This document shows, in pieces, positions 25,336 to 33,416 of a stretch of 37,470 nucleotides of DNA. Under the pieces are notes generated by a model. The model worked only from the letters and a program-made list of their open reading frames with translations. It did not search any database and was not told the origin of the DNA. Numbering within the stretch: the stretch's first letter is position 1; each line of letters opens with the position of its first letter. The translations under genes and the position numbers were made by a program. Origin of the DNA: Methanohalophilus euhalobius (GTDB lineage: Archaea; Halobacteriota; Methanosarcinia; Methanosarcinales; Methanosarcinaceae); assembly GCF_900215215.1 (NCBI RefSeq), contig NZ_OBDR01000015.1, forward strand, positions 1-37,470, written 5' to 3'.

Positions 25336-28091
<2,756 letters not shown>

Positions 28092-28098
28092 TTACACC

Positions 28099-29478
28099 TC
28101 AATCGACATTAAGGTTATATTTTACTGCTATCTCCTTAAAGGCATCTGAAAGATAGTCTATCTTTTCCCTGCTGAGGCCATAGGTGTTCAGTTTCCATGC
28201 CCTGGTGGCACCCGGGAACATCCCGACAATCCCTAGTTTTGAAAGTTCGTCACTCAGGAAGAAGCCACGGCGTTTGTGTTCCTTTGCCACTTTATCGAAG
28301 GTCTGTGTTGTATCCACTTTGGTCAGTGTGTGTCTACGGGGGTACTCAGAAATCACCTTATTGCCTTCTATTTTCAAGAACTCTTCCATGAACCGATTGG
28401 AATTGCGGACCTCCTCATCCCAGTTCTGTGTACGTTTTTTCACATGCGGGAATGAGGCCATCATGGCAAGCAGGGTACCTCCCATAAGAGTACATCCCAT
28501 CATCTCCACTTCCTTGATGCCGAACTTACGTCCAGTTACATCTCCCTTCATCTGGGTTGTGCGGAAGATGAGGTCTGCATACTCATCCGTTGTGGCCAGC
28601 ACCCCTGAGGGAGCCGGGGAGGCCATACTTTTGTGACCGGAACCTACCACGAAATCGGCACCCAGTTTCTTGCCATCGACAGGCATCACACCCACGGTGT
28701 ATGCACCGTTATAGAGCACCGGTATGTCATAATCATGTGCAACCCCGGCTATGGATTTGATATCGTGTTCATTTGCATACTGGTAATCAAAGTGGTCCAT
28801 CATCATAAGGGAAGGAGGTTTTCCGTCCTCTCTGATAACATCCTCTATCTTTTCGGCCGTTGAGCCAACATCTACCTTGTTGTCATCGTCCAGTGGTATT
28901 TCCCTGATCTTGCCTCCGGCAGCCTCAACTGCCAGGAATTCCGTGTAATGTGCCAGGGATGAAACGATTACCGGATCATCTTTTTCCACAAGAGAAGATG
29001 TAACTGCCTGGAAACCTCTCCTGGCCCCGGGAACCACCCTGGCAGTATCCATATTCACAAAGCCTGCCAGTTCTTCGTGGAAATCAGCAATTGGAGGGCG
29101 ACTAATTTTGTCGAGACGAAAAGGCTTGCGGCATGAGTCACAAGTGGAATATCCATCCCCGTAGGATATGAGAGCCTTCCTTGCCTCAGGTGTAAGTCTG
29201 CCTGCAGCCTGGATAGGCTGGATGTTTATATTTCCCTCTTCCCTGTACCTCAATCCTATACGGTCAACTATTTGGGGAAAATTGGCCTGTTTTTCAGAAG
29301 TACCTTTTTCGAGGGCCTCAATAACCGATTTAAGGTTAGCAGTAGATTTCATGAATGCGTCTTCTTCCACGGCAGACATGCCGGTGGGAAGGGATCGACG
29401 AATTATCTCCCGCATATCCTCCAGCTCAAAAAAGGCCTCAAAGGTCTTCTCTATCAAATGGTCTTTGGAGCCTTTCAT
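28099..29478 (-). CDS. pscS: O-phosphoseryl-tRNA(Cys):Cys-tRNA synthase (SepCysS)
   Basis: A PLP enzyme of about 459 residues that converts Sep-tRNA(Cys), made by SepRS, to Cys-tRNA(Cys), the methanogen indirect route to cysteine. Family features are the N-terminal extension ending in NIQPIQAAGRLTPEARKALISYGDGYSTCDSCRKPFRLDKISRPPI, with its conserved cysteines, and VVGSGHKSMASPAPSGVLA with the PLP lysine. The frame extends to 29517 but runs into the tRNA gene. AGGAGGAAGAAA directly before ATG 29478 fixes the start. The ribosome site begins only a few bases after the tRNA-Cys 3' end, so substrate tRNA and enzyme are made from one transcript. Confidence 0.95.
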   Translation of the reverse strand: MKGSKDHLIEKTFEAFFELEDMREIIRRSLPTGMSAVEEDAFMKSTANLKSVIEALEKGTSEKQANFPQIVDRIGLRYREEGNINIQPIQAAGRLTPEARKALISYGDGYSTCDSCRKPFRLDKISRPPIADFHEELAGFVNMDTARVVPGARRGFQAVTSSLVEKDDPVIVSSLAHYTEFLAVEAAGGKIREIPLDDDNKVDVGSTAEKIEDVIREDGKPPSLMMMDHFDYQYANEHDIKSIAGVAHDYDIPVLYNGAYTVGVMPVDGKKLGADFVVGSGHKSMASPAPSGVLATTDEYADLIFRTTQMKGDVTGRKFGIKEVEMMGCTLMGGTLLAMMASFPHVKKRTQNWDEEVRNSNRFMEEFLKIEGNKVISEYPRRHTLTKVDTTQTFDKVAKEHKRRGFFLSDELSKLGIVGMFPGATRAWKLNTYGLSREKIDYLSDAFKEIAVKYNLNVD

Positions 29479-29492
29479 TTTCTTCCTCCTAA

Positions 29493-29563
29493 AGGCCGGG
29501 GTGAGAGTCGAACTCACCTACACCGATCTGCAGTCGGTTGCATAACCGCTCTGCCACCCGGCC
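29493..29563 (-). tRNA. tRNA-Cys (GCA)
   Basis: A complete cloverleaf can be folded. The 7-bp acceptor stem is GGCCGGG/CCCGGCC, the D arm is GCA...TGC with GG in the loop, and the anticodon stem ACCGA/TCGGT closes the loop CTGCAGA with anticodon GCA. The variable loop has four bases, and the T arm is GTGAG-TTCGACT-CTCAC. The discriminator is U, an identity element for tRNA-Cys. CCA is not encoded. It lies 14 bp before pscS on the same strand. Confidence 0.97.
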
Positions 29564-29692
29564 GATACGTATCCATTATTAATCCACATCATTGTTTTTC
29601 CAGATGAAAAACTATAAAGAAGAGATAAAGGCAGCCAGTGCCTTCATCGCTTCTTTCGTGGTGGTTGGTGTTTGCAGGCATTTGACGCCCAC

Positions 29693-29727
29693 AATTCACA
29701 ATAGTGAATTAACAATTGTGAATTGTT
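29693..29727. promoter_or_regulatory. Tandem palindromic operators at the tRNA-Cys-pscS-metY-metX promoter
   Basis: Two adjacent palindromes are present: AATTCAC-AATA-GTGAATT (29693-29710) and AACAATT-GTG-AATTGTT (29711-29727). Each contains one mismatch to the 14-bp core TTCACAATTGTGAA (cores 29695-29708 and 29709-29722). They also form a larger inverted repeat, ACAATTCACAAT with ATTGTGAATTGT. They cover the expected transcription start of the minus-strand promoter at 29735-29747. Confidence 0.65.
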
Positions 29728-29734
29728 GCTCCTT

Positions 29735-29747
29735 GTATATATAATTT
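29735..29747 (-). promoter_or_regulatory. TATA box of the tRNA-Cys-pscS-metY-metX operon
   Basis: On the minus strand AAATTATATATAC is a strong archaeal TATA element. Initiation about 25-28 bp downstream falls at about 29714, inside the tandem palindromes, about 150 bp before the tRNA. A second, tRNA-proximal promoter cannot be excluded; weak AT boxes lie at about 29575-29583 and 29605-29615. Confidence 0.55.
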
Positions 29748-29779
29748 GTGGGGAAGAAAGCAAAAAGGAAAGTTAGTCA

Positions 29780-30112
29780 TTACTGATCGTCAGGGCAGGC
29801 ATCATCAGCCCTGAGCTGGCGGCAAATCTCACAGAACCTGTGAGAAAGGTCATCAACCGTACCATTCTGGATATCGACCGCAAGACTGGCTATAGAAGCT
29901 TTTATTTCGTCATCAAATTCAATCCTGTAACCTCTTTTTTTGGTAAGATACTGGGAAACCGCTGAAGGAGCCATCCCGAAAAGCTTAGCCACTTCCTGTT
30001 GGGTTACACCGTTATCCACCAATTCTTTTGCAAGGGCAGCCCTGATAGCAGGCAGGACATCCCATACCACAACCTGACACGGAGTTTCAGTTTTCATATT
30101 CTCACGCTTCAT
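29780..30112 (-). CDS. HTH transcriptional regulator with cysteine-rich C-terminus (COG2522-like)
   Basis: A 110-residue protein. The helix-turn-helix (about 34-58) reads NGVTQQEVAKLFGMAPSAVSQYLTKKRG, XRE/lambda-repressor-like, resembling the HTH domain found with ThiN in archaeal ThiR. Cysteines are C12, C94, C97 and C106 (FCEICRQL then DACPDDQ). Four cysteines with CX2C spacing could ligate Zn or an Fe-S cluster, or act as a thiol switch. It sits between two sulfur operons with TTCACAATTGTGAA-like palindromes at each promoter, including one at 30140-30153 in its own leader. It is therefore the probable regulator of both and of itself. ATG 30097 is an alternative start. Confidence 0.8.
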   Translation of the reverse strand: MKRENMKTETPCQVVVWDVLPAIRAALAKELVDNGVTQQEVAKLFGMAPSAVSQYLTKKRGYRIEFDDEIKASIASLAVDIQNGTVDDLSHRFCEICRQLRADDACPDDQ

Positions 30113-30139
30113 TTTCTATAGATATTGACCTACAGGTAT

Positions 30140-30153
30140 ATCACTATTGTGAA
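30140..30153. promoter_or_regulatory. Candidate operator upstream of the HTH regulator gene
   Basis: ATCACTATTGTGAA matches the shared core with two mismatches. Its reverse complement TTCACAATAGTGAT differs by one base from the site at 29695-29708. It lies 28-41 bp before the regulator ATG, in the leader or near its start, which fits autoregulation. Confidence 0.5.
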
Positions 30154-30192
30154 TGGCAGTTGGTGCTTTCTACCGAACATACGTGCAAAAAC

Positions 30193-30209
30193 TTAAAAGG
30201 CATAAAAAG
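30193..30209 (+). promoter_or_regulatory. TATA region of the iscS operon
   Basis: TTAAAAGGCATAAAAAG offers one or two TATA-like boxes. Initiation 25-27 bp downstream falls on the palindrome at 30218-30231. The leader then carries AAAGGAGGT just before ATG 30290. Confidence 0.5.
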
Positions 30210-30217
30210 ATAATATG

Positions 30218-30231
30218 TTCACAATTGTGAC
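30218..30231. promoter_or_regulatory. Operator at the iscS transcription start
   Basis: TTCACAATTGTGAC is nearly a perfect copy of the shared palindrome, with one mismatch at the last base. Its placement relative to the TATA region is the same as at the tRNA-Cys operon, so the same repressor would block both promoters. Confidence 0.6.
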
Positions 30232-30289
30232 ACGGACGTATTAAGCATTAAAGAACGATAAAATATCACAATAAATAAAGGAGGTCACA

Positions 30290-31483
30290 ATGAACACCAA
30301 CAAGGATGATACAGGAAATATCATCTATCTGGACCATGCAGCCACAACATTTACTGATCCGAAGGTACTGGAGACGATGATGCCATATTTCACTGAAAAT
30401 TTCGGCAACCCCTCTTCACCTTACGATATGGCAAACGTATCCAAAGAAGCGGTTGACAGTGCCCGACAGCAGGTGGCCACTGCCATCAATGCAGATACAG
30501 ATGAGATATATTTTACAGGTGGAGGGACCGAGTCCGACAACTGGGCAATCAAGGGTATTGCCTTTGCCAACAGGAAAAAAGGCAACCATATAATCACCTC
30601 CTCCATAGAACACCATGCAGTCCTGCATACATGCCAGTGGCTGGAAAAGCAGGGTTTTGAGGTTACCTATCTTCCAGTGGACAAATACGGACAGGTCAGA
30701 ACAGAGGATGTAAAAAAAGCCATCCGGGACGATACAATCCTGATATCTGTAATGCTGGCAAACAACGAGATCGGCACAATTCAACCAATCCCCCAAATTG
30801 GCAGGATAGCCCGGGAGAAGAACATCTATTTCCATACGGATGCCGTACAGGGCATCGGTCAGGTGCCTGTGGATGTAGAAGCTCTGAATGTGGATTTACT
30901 CTCCCTCTCCTCCCATAAATTCTACGGACCAAAGGGTGTAGGTGCCCTGTATATCAAAAAAGGCACCCGGCTCGATAACCATAGCCATGGGGGTGCCCAG
31001 GAGAAGAAAAAGAGGGCAGGCACAGAAAATGTTCCCGGTATTGTGGGAATGGGTGCAGCTATCGAACAGGCCACATCTCAACTGGAAGAGCATGCCGCTC
31101 ATATGAAAAAACTGAGAGCACAGCTGGTAGAAGGCCTCCTGCTGATCCCGGCCACCCACCTTGCAGGCCATCCGGAAAAACGCTTGCCGAACAATGTGAA
31201 CGTAATCTTTGAATACATAGAAGGCGAATCCATTCTGTTGATGCTGAATTCGTACTCTATTGCAGCCTCTACGGGAAGTGCCTGTACCTCGGCTTCCCTT
31301 GAACCGTCACATGTGCTTATTGCCTGCGGATTCCCCCATGAGGTCGCACACGGGTCCCTGCGCCTGACCCTGGGAAAGGAAAATACGGAAGAGGATGTGG
31401 ATTACCTGTTGCAAACGCTGGAGCCAATTATCAGGAGGCTCAGGGCGATGTCACCTATGACACCAAAGGAACAGAGGGAATGA
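30290..31483 (+). CDS. iscS: Cysteine desulfurase (IscS/NifS family)
   Basis: A 397-residue PLP enzyme that takes sulfur from cysteine as a persulfide and passes it to IscU and other acceptors. Visible are IYLDHAATTFTDPKVLETMMPYFTENFGNPSS, the PLP lysine K210 in SLSSHKFYGPKGVGALYIKKG, and the mobile catalytic loop STGSACTSASLEPSHVL with C332, the spacing of the IscS/NifS class. Many methanogens lack or bypass IscS because sulfide is abundant, so its operon context matters. It is the first gene of iscS-iscU-moeB/thiF-larE, with a strong AAAGGAGGT ribosome site and a palindromic operator upstream. Confidence 0.95.
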   Translation: MNTNKDDTGNIIYLDHAATTFTDPKVLETMMPYFTENFGNPSSPYDMANVSKEAVDSARQQVATAINADTDEIYFTGGGTESDNWAIKGIAFANRKKGNHIITSSIEHHAVLHTCQWLEKQGFEVTYLPVDKYGQVRTEDVKKAIRDDTILISVMLANNEIGTIQPIPQIGRIAREKNIYFHTDAVQGIGQVPVDVEALNVDLLSLSSHKFYGPKGVGALYIKKGTRLDNHSHGGAQEKKKRAGTENVPGIVGMGAAIEQATSQLEEHAAHMKKLRAQLVEGLLLIPATHLAGHPEKRLPNNVNVIFEYIEGESILLMLNSYSIAASTGSACTSASLEPSHVLIACGFPHEVAHGSLRLTLGKENTEEDVDYLLQTLEPIIRRLRAMSPMTPKEQRE

Positions 31484-31488
31484 TATTA

Positions 31489-31890
31489 ATGATGTACAGT
31501 GAAAAAGTAATGGAACATTTCATGAATCCCCACAACGTAGGCGAGATGGAAAATCCCGACGGAGTCGGAGAGGTAGGCAATCCCCAGTGCGGAGACATCA
31601 TGCGGATATACCTGCGCATTGAGAATGATGTAATCACAGATGCAAAGTTCATGACCTTCGGATGCGGTGCCGCCATCGCATCCAGTAGTATGGCAACCGA
31701 TCTGATCAAAGGCAAGACCCTTGAAGAAGCCTGGGAGGTTACAAACAAGGCAGTGGCAGAGGCACTTGAAGGATTACCCCCTGTAAAAATGCACTGTTCG
31801 GTACTGGCTGAAGAAGGCATACACAAGGCAATCAATGATTATAGGGAAAAACAGGGTTTTGAGCCTTTGAAGGAGAAAACCGATGCTTAA
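31489..31890 (+). CDS. iscU: Fe-S cluster assembly scaffold IscU
   Basis: About 133 residues. The scaffold on which Fe-S clusters are built has three conserved cysteines, here in GVGEVGNPQCGDIM, MTFGCGAAIASSSM and VKMHCSVLAEEGI. The aspartate next to the first (CGD) is also conserved. The frame begins at ATG 31480, overlapping the iscS stop, but GAGGGA at 31474-31479 is spaced for ATG 31489 (or 31492). It is NifU/IscU-type without extra domains. No HscA/HscB or IscA lies nearby. Confidence 0.94.
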   Translation: MMYSEKVMEHFMNPHNVGEMENPDGVGEVGNPQCGDIMRIYLRIENDVITDAKFMTFGCGAAIASSSMATDLIKGKTLEEAWEVTNKAVAEALEGLPPVKMHCSVLAEEGIHKAINDYREKQGFEPLKEKTDA

Positions 31891-32608
31891 TGATACTGAA
31901 AAAGAACTCTATAGCCGCCAGATAATGATGGTCGGTGAAGAAGGCCAGGAGAAACTTAAAAACGCAACCGTAATGATAGCCGGCTGTGGAGGTCTGGGTT
32001 CACCAATTATGCATTACCTTGCTGTTGCCGGTATAGGTCACATCCGCCTTGTCGATAAGGATACTGTTGAAATGAGCAATCTCAACAGACAAATACTGCA
32101 CTGGCACCGGGATATCGGAAAAAGCAAGAGCCAGTCTGCTGAAGAAAAACTTGCAGAACTCAACCCCAACATCGAACTGGAAGCCTTCAATAAGGAAATC
32201 AATGCCGAAAACATAGATAAATTGATACAGGGAGCAGATATAATCGTAGATGCGCTGGATAACTATGAAACACGAATGTTGCTCAACAGGGCCGCAATCC
32301 GACAATCATTGCCTCTGGTCCACGGTGCAGTTCACGGATTCCACGGGCAACTCACTACAGTCATCCCGGGCAAAACACCCTGCATTGAATGTTTGATCCC
32401 TGAAAAACCCCCGAAAGAAGTATTTCCAATCATCGGTTGCACCGCAGGCGTAGTGGGTACGATGCAGGCAAACGAGGTGATCAAGTACCTGCTTGGCTGG
32501 GAAGATTTACATACCGGCCATATTGTAATGTGGGACGGCAGGAGCGGAACGTTAGACAGGATGAAAATATGCCGCAGGATGGACTGTCCAGAGTGCGGCC
32601 ACTTATAA
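31883..32608 (+). CDS. ThiF/MoeB/HesA-family E1-like adenylyltransferase
   Basis: A 241-residue E1-like enzyme that adenylates the C-terminal Gly-Gly of a ubiquitin-like sulfur carrier (MoaD, ThiS or SAMP type). The nucleotide loop is MIAGCGGLGSPIMHYLAVAGIGHIRLVDKD, followed by the arginine finger motif SNLNRQILH. DALDNYETRMLLNRAA and the GCTAGVVGTMQANEVIKYLLG crossover match MoeB. Zinc-binding pairs are CIEC and CPEC. It has no rhodanese domain. It overlaps iscU by 8 bp, so persulfide from IscS probably feeds the sulfur carrier it activates. moaA lies nearby, but no moaD or thiS does. Confidence 0.9.
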   Translation: MLNDTEKELYSRQIMMVGEEGQEKLKNATVMIAGCGGLGSPIMHYLAVAGIGHIRLVDKDTVEMSNLNRQILHWHRDIGKSKSQSAEEKLAELNPNIELEAFNKEINAENIDKLIQGADIIVDALDNYETRMLLNRAAIRQSLPLVHGAVHGFHGQLTTVIPGKTPCIECLIPEKPPKEVFPIIGCTAGVVGTMQANEVIKYLLGWEDLHTGHIVMWDGRSGTLDRMKICRRMDCPECGHL

Positions 32609-32609
32609 T

Positions 32610-33416
32610 ATGAAAAACATGACAAATAACAAATTGAAACAACTGGAAGATTTCATACAATCCACCGGCCCAGTTGCAATTCTTTTTTCGGGAGGTGTGG
32701 ACAGCAGCCTGCTTTCGGTTGTCTCCAGGGAAGTGCTTGGGGACAAACATATTTGCATCCTGTTGAATTCCCCACTCATACCCGAATATGCGGTATGCAG
32801 GGCAAAACAAACTGCCCATGATTACGGATTAAAGCTGCATGTACTGGATATTGATCCCCTTGAATATGAAAATATAAGAATGAACCCGAGGGATCGCTGT
32901 TACCACTGTAAGAAGAAAGTAATAGAAATTGCAAGGAAATATGCTGCATCCCTGGGTTATACGGTTATTGCTGATGGTACCAACGTCTCGGATACACAGA
33001 CATTGCGACCGGGGCTTGCCGCCAGTCGGGAAGAGAGAATACTTCATCCTTTCGTGTCTGCAAATATCACCAAAGCAGATATCAGGCAGATAGCAAAACA
33101 AAAAGATTGCGATTTCTGGGACCTGCCTTCTTCTGCCTGTCTGGCCTCACGTATACCCTATGGCGAGATGCTGGACGTCGAGAAACTCGGCAAAATTGAA
33201 CAGGGAGAGGATATTCTGCACAGAATGGGATTTTTGCAATGCCGGATGAGATTGCATGACGGGGGAACCCTTGCCCGTATAGAAGTCCCCGCTGAACAGA
33301 TTCCAACAGCCATCCTAAAAATGGATGATCTAATCAGTCACCTGAAAGCTACAGGGATCAAACATGTCTGCCTGGACCTCGAAGGCTACAGAAGTGGCAG
33401 CATGGATGAGACCTGA
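32610..33416 (+). CDS. larE: LarE-like ATP-dependent sulfurtransferase
   Basis: A 268-residue PP-loop ATPase of the LarE family. The ATP loop is LFSGGVDSSLLS at 25-36. Cysteines C97 and C100 (DRCYHCKK) and C177 (SSACLASRIPYGE) are in positions expected of the LarE class that binds a 4Fe-4S cluster with three cysteines, in contrast to enzymes that sacrifice one cysteine's sulfur. LarE thiolates the nickel-pincer nucleotide precursor of lactate racemase. No larA, larB or larC is here, so the substrate may be different. It starts one base after the moeB-like gene and ends the isc operon, so sulfur supplied by IscS/IscU may rebuild its cluster. Confidence 0.88.
   Translation: MKNMTNNKLKQLEDFIQSTGPVAILFSGGVDSSLLSVVSREVLGDKHICILLNSPLIPEYAVCRAKQTAHDYGLKLHVLDIDPLEYENIRMNPRDRCYHCKKKVIEIARKYAASLGYTVIADGTNVSDTQTLRPGLAASREERILHPFVSANITKADIRQIAKQKDCDFWDLPSSACLASRIPYGEMLDVEKLGKIEQGEDILHRMGFLQCRMRLHDGGTLARIEVPAEQIPTAILKMDDLISHLKATGIKHVCLDLEGYRSGSMDET

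Follow-up and report, generated by a model that had tools for sequence, protein, structure and literature searches.

In bacteria, IscR of the Rrf2 family, a small cysteine-bearing DNA-binding protein with a [2Fe-2S] cluster, controls iscSU in an autoregulated manner and acts on wider iron-sulfur (Fe-S) and sulfur targets, and regulators of the CymR and CysB types are the master control of sulfur assimilation. In archaea, SurR of the Thermococcales is a sulfur-linked regulator with a CxxC motif; it has an ArsR-like winged helix and responds to elemental sulfur. Here we analysed a DNA stretch of 37,470 nucleotides from Methanohalophilus euhalobius (assembly GCF_900215215.1, contig NZ_OBDR01000015.1, positions 1 to 37,470; this whole stretch is called the window below), in which the gene for a 110-amino acid (aa) helix-turn-helix (HTH) protein (29780..30112, minus strand) lies between a minus-strand and a plus-strand operon of sulfur genes and is accompanied by four copies of a palindrome related to TTCACAATTGTGAA. 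Comparison among genomes suggests that in the Methanosarcinaceae and Methanomicrobiales this HTH protein probably represses its own gene and a regulon for sulfur assimilation and trafficking. A common short DNA switch stands before genes for sulfur acquisition and handling in methanogens, an additional tRNA-Cys among them, and the adjoining cysteine-rich protein is very probably its repressor. The finding names a candidate master repressor, an operator and a target list in archaea that can be cultured and are partly tractable by genetics.

Like IscR, the HTH protein is predicted to control its own gene and iscSU, as several genera have sites before the regulator gene and before iscS. The preliminary description had taken the protein to be unrelated to IscR in sequence, and this was borne out, since hmmscan against Pfam-A (E 0.001) gave no match to the Rrf2 domain. 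The predicted targets also differ from those of IscR, as they include tRNA-Cys, Sep-tRNA:Cys-tRNA synthase (SepCysS), MetX/MetY, thi4 and tusA, and the cysteine spacing of IscR is another one. The HTH protein thus appears to work like IscR without being of the IscR family. The regulators of the CymR and CysB types are set apart by description, because tRNA-dependent cysteine synthesis is a predicted controlled branch here, and SurR likewise, because the predicted targets here are assimilatory. HdrR of Methanosarcina barkeri also has an HTH domain and palindromic promoter sites; however, the accessible part of the report describes a winged-helix activator of hdrBCA and no sulfur regulon (PMC11218639). 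The isc2 cluster of M. acetivorans, as described in the available part of PMC7585200, holds iscS2-iscU2 together with genes for methionine and NAD biosynthesis. Unlike the locus described here, neither operator nor regulator is mentioned in the accessible parts of that paper and of PMC5424206. A text search of the literature turned up no account of such a regulator, of its operator or of the control, which is weak evidence because most subscription papers lay outside its coverage. The regulation of cysteine, methionine and Fe-S supply in methanogens appears to be undescribed.

The preliminary description had placed four palindromes in the window, and all of them were found at their positions. 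Palindromes 1 (TTCACAATAGTGAA, 29695..29708) and 2 (TTAACAATTGTGAA, 29709..29722), each with one mismatch to TTCACAATTGTGAA, abut and form a tandem putative operator over the inferred start of tRNA-Cys-sepCysS-metY-metX, and a TATA-like TATATATA on the minus strand is centred about 24 nt upstream of palindrome 2. Palindrome 3 (ATCACTATTGTGAA, 30140..30153; two mismatches) lies 28 bp upstream of the ATG of the regulator, in the probable leader of its gene, and is the predicted autoregulatory operator. Palindrome 4 (TTCACAATTGTGAC, 30218..30231; one mismatch) is at the inferred start of iscS-iscU-moeB-larE, which was placed from a TATA-like CTTAAAAG at 30192-30199. Tandem palindromes were also present in other Methanohalophilus and in Methanococcoides-type loci. 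The number of sites in the window alone is only mildly improbable: six were found with up to three mismatches, as compared with a mean of 3.3 in shuffled sequences, and 12 of 100 shuffles reached six. It is the clustering and the genome-scale counts, not the window count, that make the signal convincing. Across the whole genome (1.94 Mb), a scan that allowed two mismatches to TTCACAATTGTGAA gave 17 sites, versus 2 for the reversed pattern. All five sites with at most one mismatch precede sulfur genes: three are in the window, one is about 32 bp before the likely thiM start of thiM-thiE (locus L001), and one is at a tusA-dsrE-iscS operon in which TusA was confirmed (locus L002). When TTCACNATNGTGAA was used with up to one mismatch, 12 sites were obtained, versus 5 in the reversed control; six are at sulfur promoters, five fall within open reading frames of 150 or more codons (one of them, L015, is possibly ahead of the true start) and one is in neither position. 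The reversed-pattern controls rule out a chance origin of the palindromes.

Homologues of the HTH protein were found at E 0.001 in 100 of the 149 genomes of the order, a count that mixes the window type (with an identity of roughly 54-96% inside the same family) with a paralogue (about 34-41% identity); these identities, like the other details of the homologue survey and the genome-wide site scans, are those among the matches listed, and surroundings were read for part of the listed sites. In a check set beforehand, the palindrome was conserved before orthologous and additional sulfur genes in both the Methanosarcinaceae and the Methanomicrobiales. A site with up to two mismatches was present in 28 of 30 regulator loci, and 80 named archaeal regulator loci held 96 sites with up to one mismatch, versus none for the reversed pattern. 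Within 400 bp upstream of the regulator, a site was found in 23/29 Methanosarcinaceae, 23/33 Methanomicrobiales (one further locus of the 34, with less than 100 bp upstream, was left out) and 2/5 others, and the reversed control gave zero in each group. Several loci of the Methanoregula type have the regulator and iscS-iscU, the latter often with moeB, in divergent orientation, and a perfect TTCACAATTGTGAA stands about 64 bp before the aligned start of the regulator.

The co-occurrence of palindrome and regulator, which the preliminary description had proposed to look for, was clear among the 41 genomes scanned. Exact sites were found in 25 of the 33 genomes with the window-type regulator (82 sites; reversed control 9) and in none of the eight with a weak match only (reversed control 3). 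The Fisher p value of 0.00013 overstates this evidence, as it takes no account of kinship among the genomes, and some few of the exact sites could have arisen by chance. Each of the eight regulator-negative genomes has one weak match (E 2e-13 to 2e-16; 34-40% identity in the five among the matches listed), which was taken as the paralogue. The paralogue was rejected as the binder of the palindrome, since these eight genomes keep it without any exact site. It is quite improbable that another transcription factor binds the palindrome beside an HTH gene that is a mere neighbour. Such a factor would suit the sites that are spread far from the regulator in the g6 genomes (probably Methanosarcina, an assignment that is a guess) and the Methanotrichaceae, which have the gene without the site; however, the sites go with the gene (25/33 versus 0/8), and a self-site stands upstream of the HTH gene in two orders. 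The ANME-1 loci argue in the same direction. None of the three (L209, L213 and L229) has the site in the 400 bp before the regulator gene; their recognition helix is TPAAVSQYV, versus APSAVSQYL, and an upstream palindrome TTAACAATTGTTAT is found in all three, so that operator and recognition helix seem to have changed together, in three loci only. It is very likely that the regulon is run by the HTH protein.

The target genes, which were named from a hidden Markov model (HMM) match or from their resemblance to proteins identified in that way, extend well beyond those of the window. Sites in other genomes precede iscS-iscU with moeB or nadA, TusA, DsrE-IscS-IscU, Thi4, ThiM-ThiE and NadA, and further site-bearing targets are CysK-CysE, CysRS behind tRNA-Cys, SepCysS, SufS with FdhD, and the regulator itself. 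The gene for methanogenesis marker 16 is also among them (at L114), and in two g6 genomes a site with one mismatch is found at a cluster of radical-SAM, ABC, CobW-like, FeS and marker-16 genes. Marker 16 is coenzyme M synthase according to the accessible part of PMC12068725. The preliminary description had tied the regulator to sulfur genes, and no unrelated pathway emerged from its neighbours elsewhere, which are iscS-iscU, moeB-like, LarE, SufS, ThiS-like, NadA, SepCysS and MetY/MetX genes. The interpretation as a sulfur regulon is thus supported by comparative genomics.

The most surprising target is tRNA-Cys. The tRNA-Cys gene of the window (GCA; 29493..29563, minus strand) is a divergent second type that exists beside canonical tRNA-Cys copies. 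The preliminary description overlooked this: the regulated tRNA-Cys and the regulated SepCysS are each a divergent second copy, and canonical copies exist as well. A search with the DNA of the window tRNA-Cys matched in 15 of 80 genomes, and a covariance model was then run on 25 and 29 genomes. We sorted 94 distinct tRNA-Cys genes by the nearest of five yardsticks; their loci came from tRNA searches and hit lists and were not chosen by site, not every tRNA hit was fetched, and duplicates and genes with fewer than 90 bases upstream were dropped. When a site was counted within 200 bp and with at most one mismatch, it was present at 25 of the 27 window-type genes, versus 1 of the 46 canonical genes. 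The other types gave 4/5 (type B, a second divergent type), 1/9 (A73 type) and 0/7 (M type), and the reversed control gave 0/94. In a wider set, which is biased because many of its loci were fetched for their sites, and from which genes with fewer than 100 bases upstream were dropped, 44 of 64 divergent genes had the site, versus 5 of 45 canonical-like genes, all five in Methanolobus-type regulator loci. The canonical genes often stand directly before an apparent 5S rRNA gene, as judged by eye. In one Methanococcoides genome (probably M. vulcani), two tandem tRNA-Cys genes have their own palindromes each. This split between regulated and housekeeping tRNA-Cys is the strongest new element of the analysis, and it puts a tRNA gene under a predicted dedicated metabolic operator.

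In seven Methanolobus-type loci (L042, L043, L045, L141, L177, L179 and L190), a degenerate tRNA-Cys-like RNA gene was observed behind the same tandem palindromes. The T-arm is kept and the anticodon arm is lost, as seen by eye, and conserved 3' hairpins follow; in some other Methanolobus, an intact tRNA-Cys stands at this position. An Rfam search of six Methanolobus-type loci gave tRNAs and sub-threshold noise only. This gene may be a tRNA that was turned into another RNA under sulfur control.

The position of the sites bears on how the HTH protein acts. At 49 site-bearing tRNA-Cys genes, 129 TATA-like octamers were found upstream of the palindrome centre, versus 11 on the downstream side, which includes tRNA sequence. 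Most of the upstream octamers are located at -42 to -31 from the palindrome centre, with a smaller peak at -18 to -13. The site should therefore be about where transcription starts. Judged from this arrangement, repression is likely rather than activation. In the mechanism that we propose, a dimer of the HTH protein, as suggested by the symmetry of the site, would bind the TTCACNATNGTGAA palindromes between TATA box and gene, often two in tandem, and would block RNA polymerase. A drop in the supply of sulfur, cysteine or Fe-S would release the protein, and the output of IscS/IscU, of enzymes for methionine and cysteine synthesis, of sulfur carriers, of thiazole enzymes and of the second tRNA-Cys would then rise, together with that of the second SepCysS in part of the genomes. 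It is unlikely that the HTH protein is an activator, or that it acts in both ways by turns from these sites. The variable spacing between TATA box and palindrome would agree with it, as would promoters with two sites about 19-23 nt apart; however, the sites are downstream of the TATA box, where a bound protein is expected to block, and they overlap the inferred starts of the tRNA-Cys and iscS transcripts of the window. A last possibility, that the palindrome is an RNA hairpin acting as attenuator or processing signal, was suggested by its place in the probable leader of the regulator gene and is very improbable. This reading was dropped, because at many tRNA-Cys genes the palindrome occupies positions -20 to -60 relative to the tRNA, near the expected start of transcription, because a perfect 14-nt palindrome leaves no loop, and because the sites are missing where the regulator is missing.

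The putative repressor has 110 aa with cysteines at positions 12, 94, 97 and 106, exactly as the preliminary description had read it. Its AlphaFold model consists of five helices with the HTH in the middle (mean predicted local distance difference test score, pLDDT, 84), and a profile search of the PDB sequences gave weak matches to Cro/lambda-like chains. C12, C94 and C97 are invariant in 122 of 122 homologues, comprising both the window type and the paralogue, and a further cysteine follows C97 in 121 of them; the set was restricted to distinct, complete sequences without a stop, with an alignment starting by residue 16. We grouped these proteins as a four-cysteine HTH family, with an N-terminal cysteine, an AVSQY recognition helix, a CxxC motif and a further C-terminal cysteine, to which the HTH protein of the window belongs. 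C12, C94-x2-C97 and the fourth cysteine would most likely ligate an Fe-S cluster, whose loss would be the signal. This cofactor is favoured because the four cysteines are conserved in both kinds of protein and iscSU is a frequent neighbour, and we regard an Fe-S cluster as the sensed cofactor as an evenly balanced proposition. It is also quite conceivable, if less expected, that the same repressor with the same regulon holds structural Zn with its cysteines and senses a small molecule (cysteine, O-phosphoserine or sulfide) or a persulfide on a free thiol. The PC ... CxxC ... C arrangement fits Zn as well as Fe-S, the regulon is centred on cysteine and sulfur flux, and no iron transporter was recognised among the targets read. 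However, the five-helix model with its central HTH seems to offer no separate ligand-binding domain, and the frequent neighbourhood of iscSU, shared by the paralogue genes in some genomes as judged by eye, argues for Fe-S.

The paralogue with the same cysteines adjoins a gene that we take to be Nre-like, and in some genomes, by eye, iscS/iscU-like genes (L096-L100, L093-L095). It may be another regulator of this type, acting on an operator of its own.

Several observations weigh against a sulfur repressor of this kind. The only Pfam-A matches of the HTH protein, HTH_3, which would mark the XRE superfamily (21.7 bits; cut-off 23), and HTH_23 (19.4 bits; cut-off 24.6), are below the curated cut-offs, NCBIfam gave no family at E 0.001, and no informative solved relative was found by Foldseek against the PDB at E 0.001 or by the profile search of PDB sequences. 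Structural Zn could be what the four cysteines hold. The Methanotrichaceae keep the regulator, several of them with LarE/SufS neighbours, yet a site within 400 bp upstream was found in 0/9, and a search for palindromes shared among them gave none that was convincing; Methanocorpusculum-type and Methanomethylovorans loci are also without the site. Eight of the 33 regulator-positive genomes lack an exact site; the six of these that were inspected, all but G069 and G124, have sites with one mismatch at the regulator or at tRNA-Cys. Counts with one mismatch are noisy (149 versus 59 reversed in 10 genomes, and 170 versus 95 in 12 genomes) and fall below the reversed control in G073 (5 versus 11) and G098 (3 versus 7), and such counts alone would miss the regulon in genomes like these. 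Some targets are not obviously connected with sulfur, namely a small protein with an HTH_24 gene in four g6 loci and a Prismane/CO dehydrogenase family gene behind exact palindromes in three g6 genomes (L270 by Pfam; L272 and L276 by eye), and a few exact sites are near no recognised gene or have surroundings outside the inspection. In three of the four g6 loci, a NifH-family gene is upstream of the site in the same direction; it was therefore rejected as the target, the small protein and HTH_24 genes being likelier.

Besides the SepCysS of the window (28099..29481, minus strand; TIGR02539, PRK09331), which is the second and longer copy, another SepCysS with 42% identity to it is encoded elsewhere in the same genome. 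SepRS was above the cut-off in all 31 genomes examined, and each genome has at least one SepCysS. A window-like SepCysS (at least 66% identity) was found in 13 of 23 regulator-positive genomes, versus none of the eight regulator-negative genomes, which hold the 42-45% type alone. In the three Methanococcoides-type genomes that have it, the second SepCysS is away from the regulator, with no site beside it among the matches listed. In the accessible part of PMC5424206, clade VII SepCysS genes are reported as frequent neighbours of tRNA-Cys and of a small number of sulfur genes, and it is suggested there that in some conditions cysteine synthesis may be raised by a duplicate copy of SepCysS; we infer that the SepCysS of the window is of clade VII. 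The available part of PMC8762117 refers to Hauenstein and Perona 2008 for the preferences that SepRS and CysRS show among isoacceptors in M. mazei. Regulated and housekeeping copies of tRNA-Cys and SepCysS are now separated, so that the question of why several tRNA-Cys isoacceptors and two SepCysS are kept becomes directly testable. As a tentative idea, the regulated tRNA-Cys and the second SepCysS might make up a dedicated pathway of tRNA-dependent cysteine synthesis that is inducible and apart from translation, with the special tRNA as a metabolic cofactor, and under sulfur shortage a four-cysteine Fe-S-sensing repressor might switch this pathway on along with IscSU and the sulfur carriers. 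In one Methanohalophilus-type genome (G041), the locus (L018) has retained MetY and the operators, but no tRNA-Cys was seen there, and the SepCysS match covers the last 53 residues only.

At L261, L263, L269, L271, L111 and L277, the site is closely followed by a small gene of the HTH_24 type (LPPSAKLVFK...). It follows the small protein gene in most g6 loci, or is divergent from TusA (confirmed at L277), and it is a possible second regulator in a cascade.

As for the remaining genes of the window, the plus-strand operon encodes an IscS/NifS cysteine desulfurase (30290..31483; TIGR03402 over cut-off), an IscU/NifU-N scaffold (31480..31890), a MoeB/ThiF-like E1 enzyme (31883..32608) and a LarE-like sulfur transferase (32610..33416; TIGR00268 over cut-off). 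In the minus-strand operon, tRNA-Cys and SepCysS are followed by a MetY-like O-acetylhomoserine sulfhydrylase (26784..28088) and a MetX-like homoserine acyltransferase (25336..26787), both on the minus strand. The MetX-like protein is fused to C-terminal CBS domains, which suggests allosteric control of methionine synthesis.

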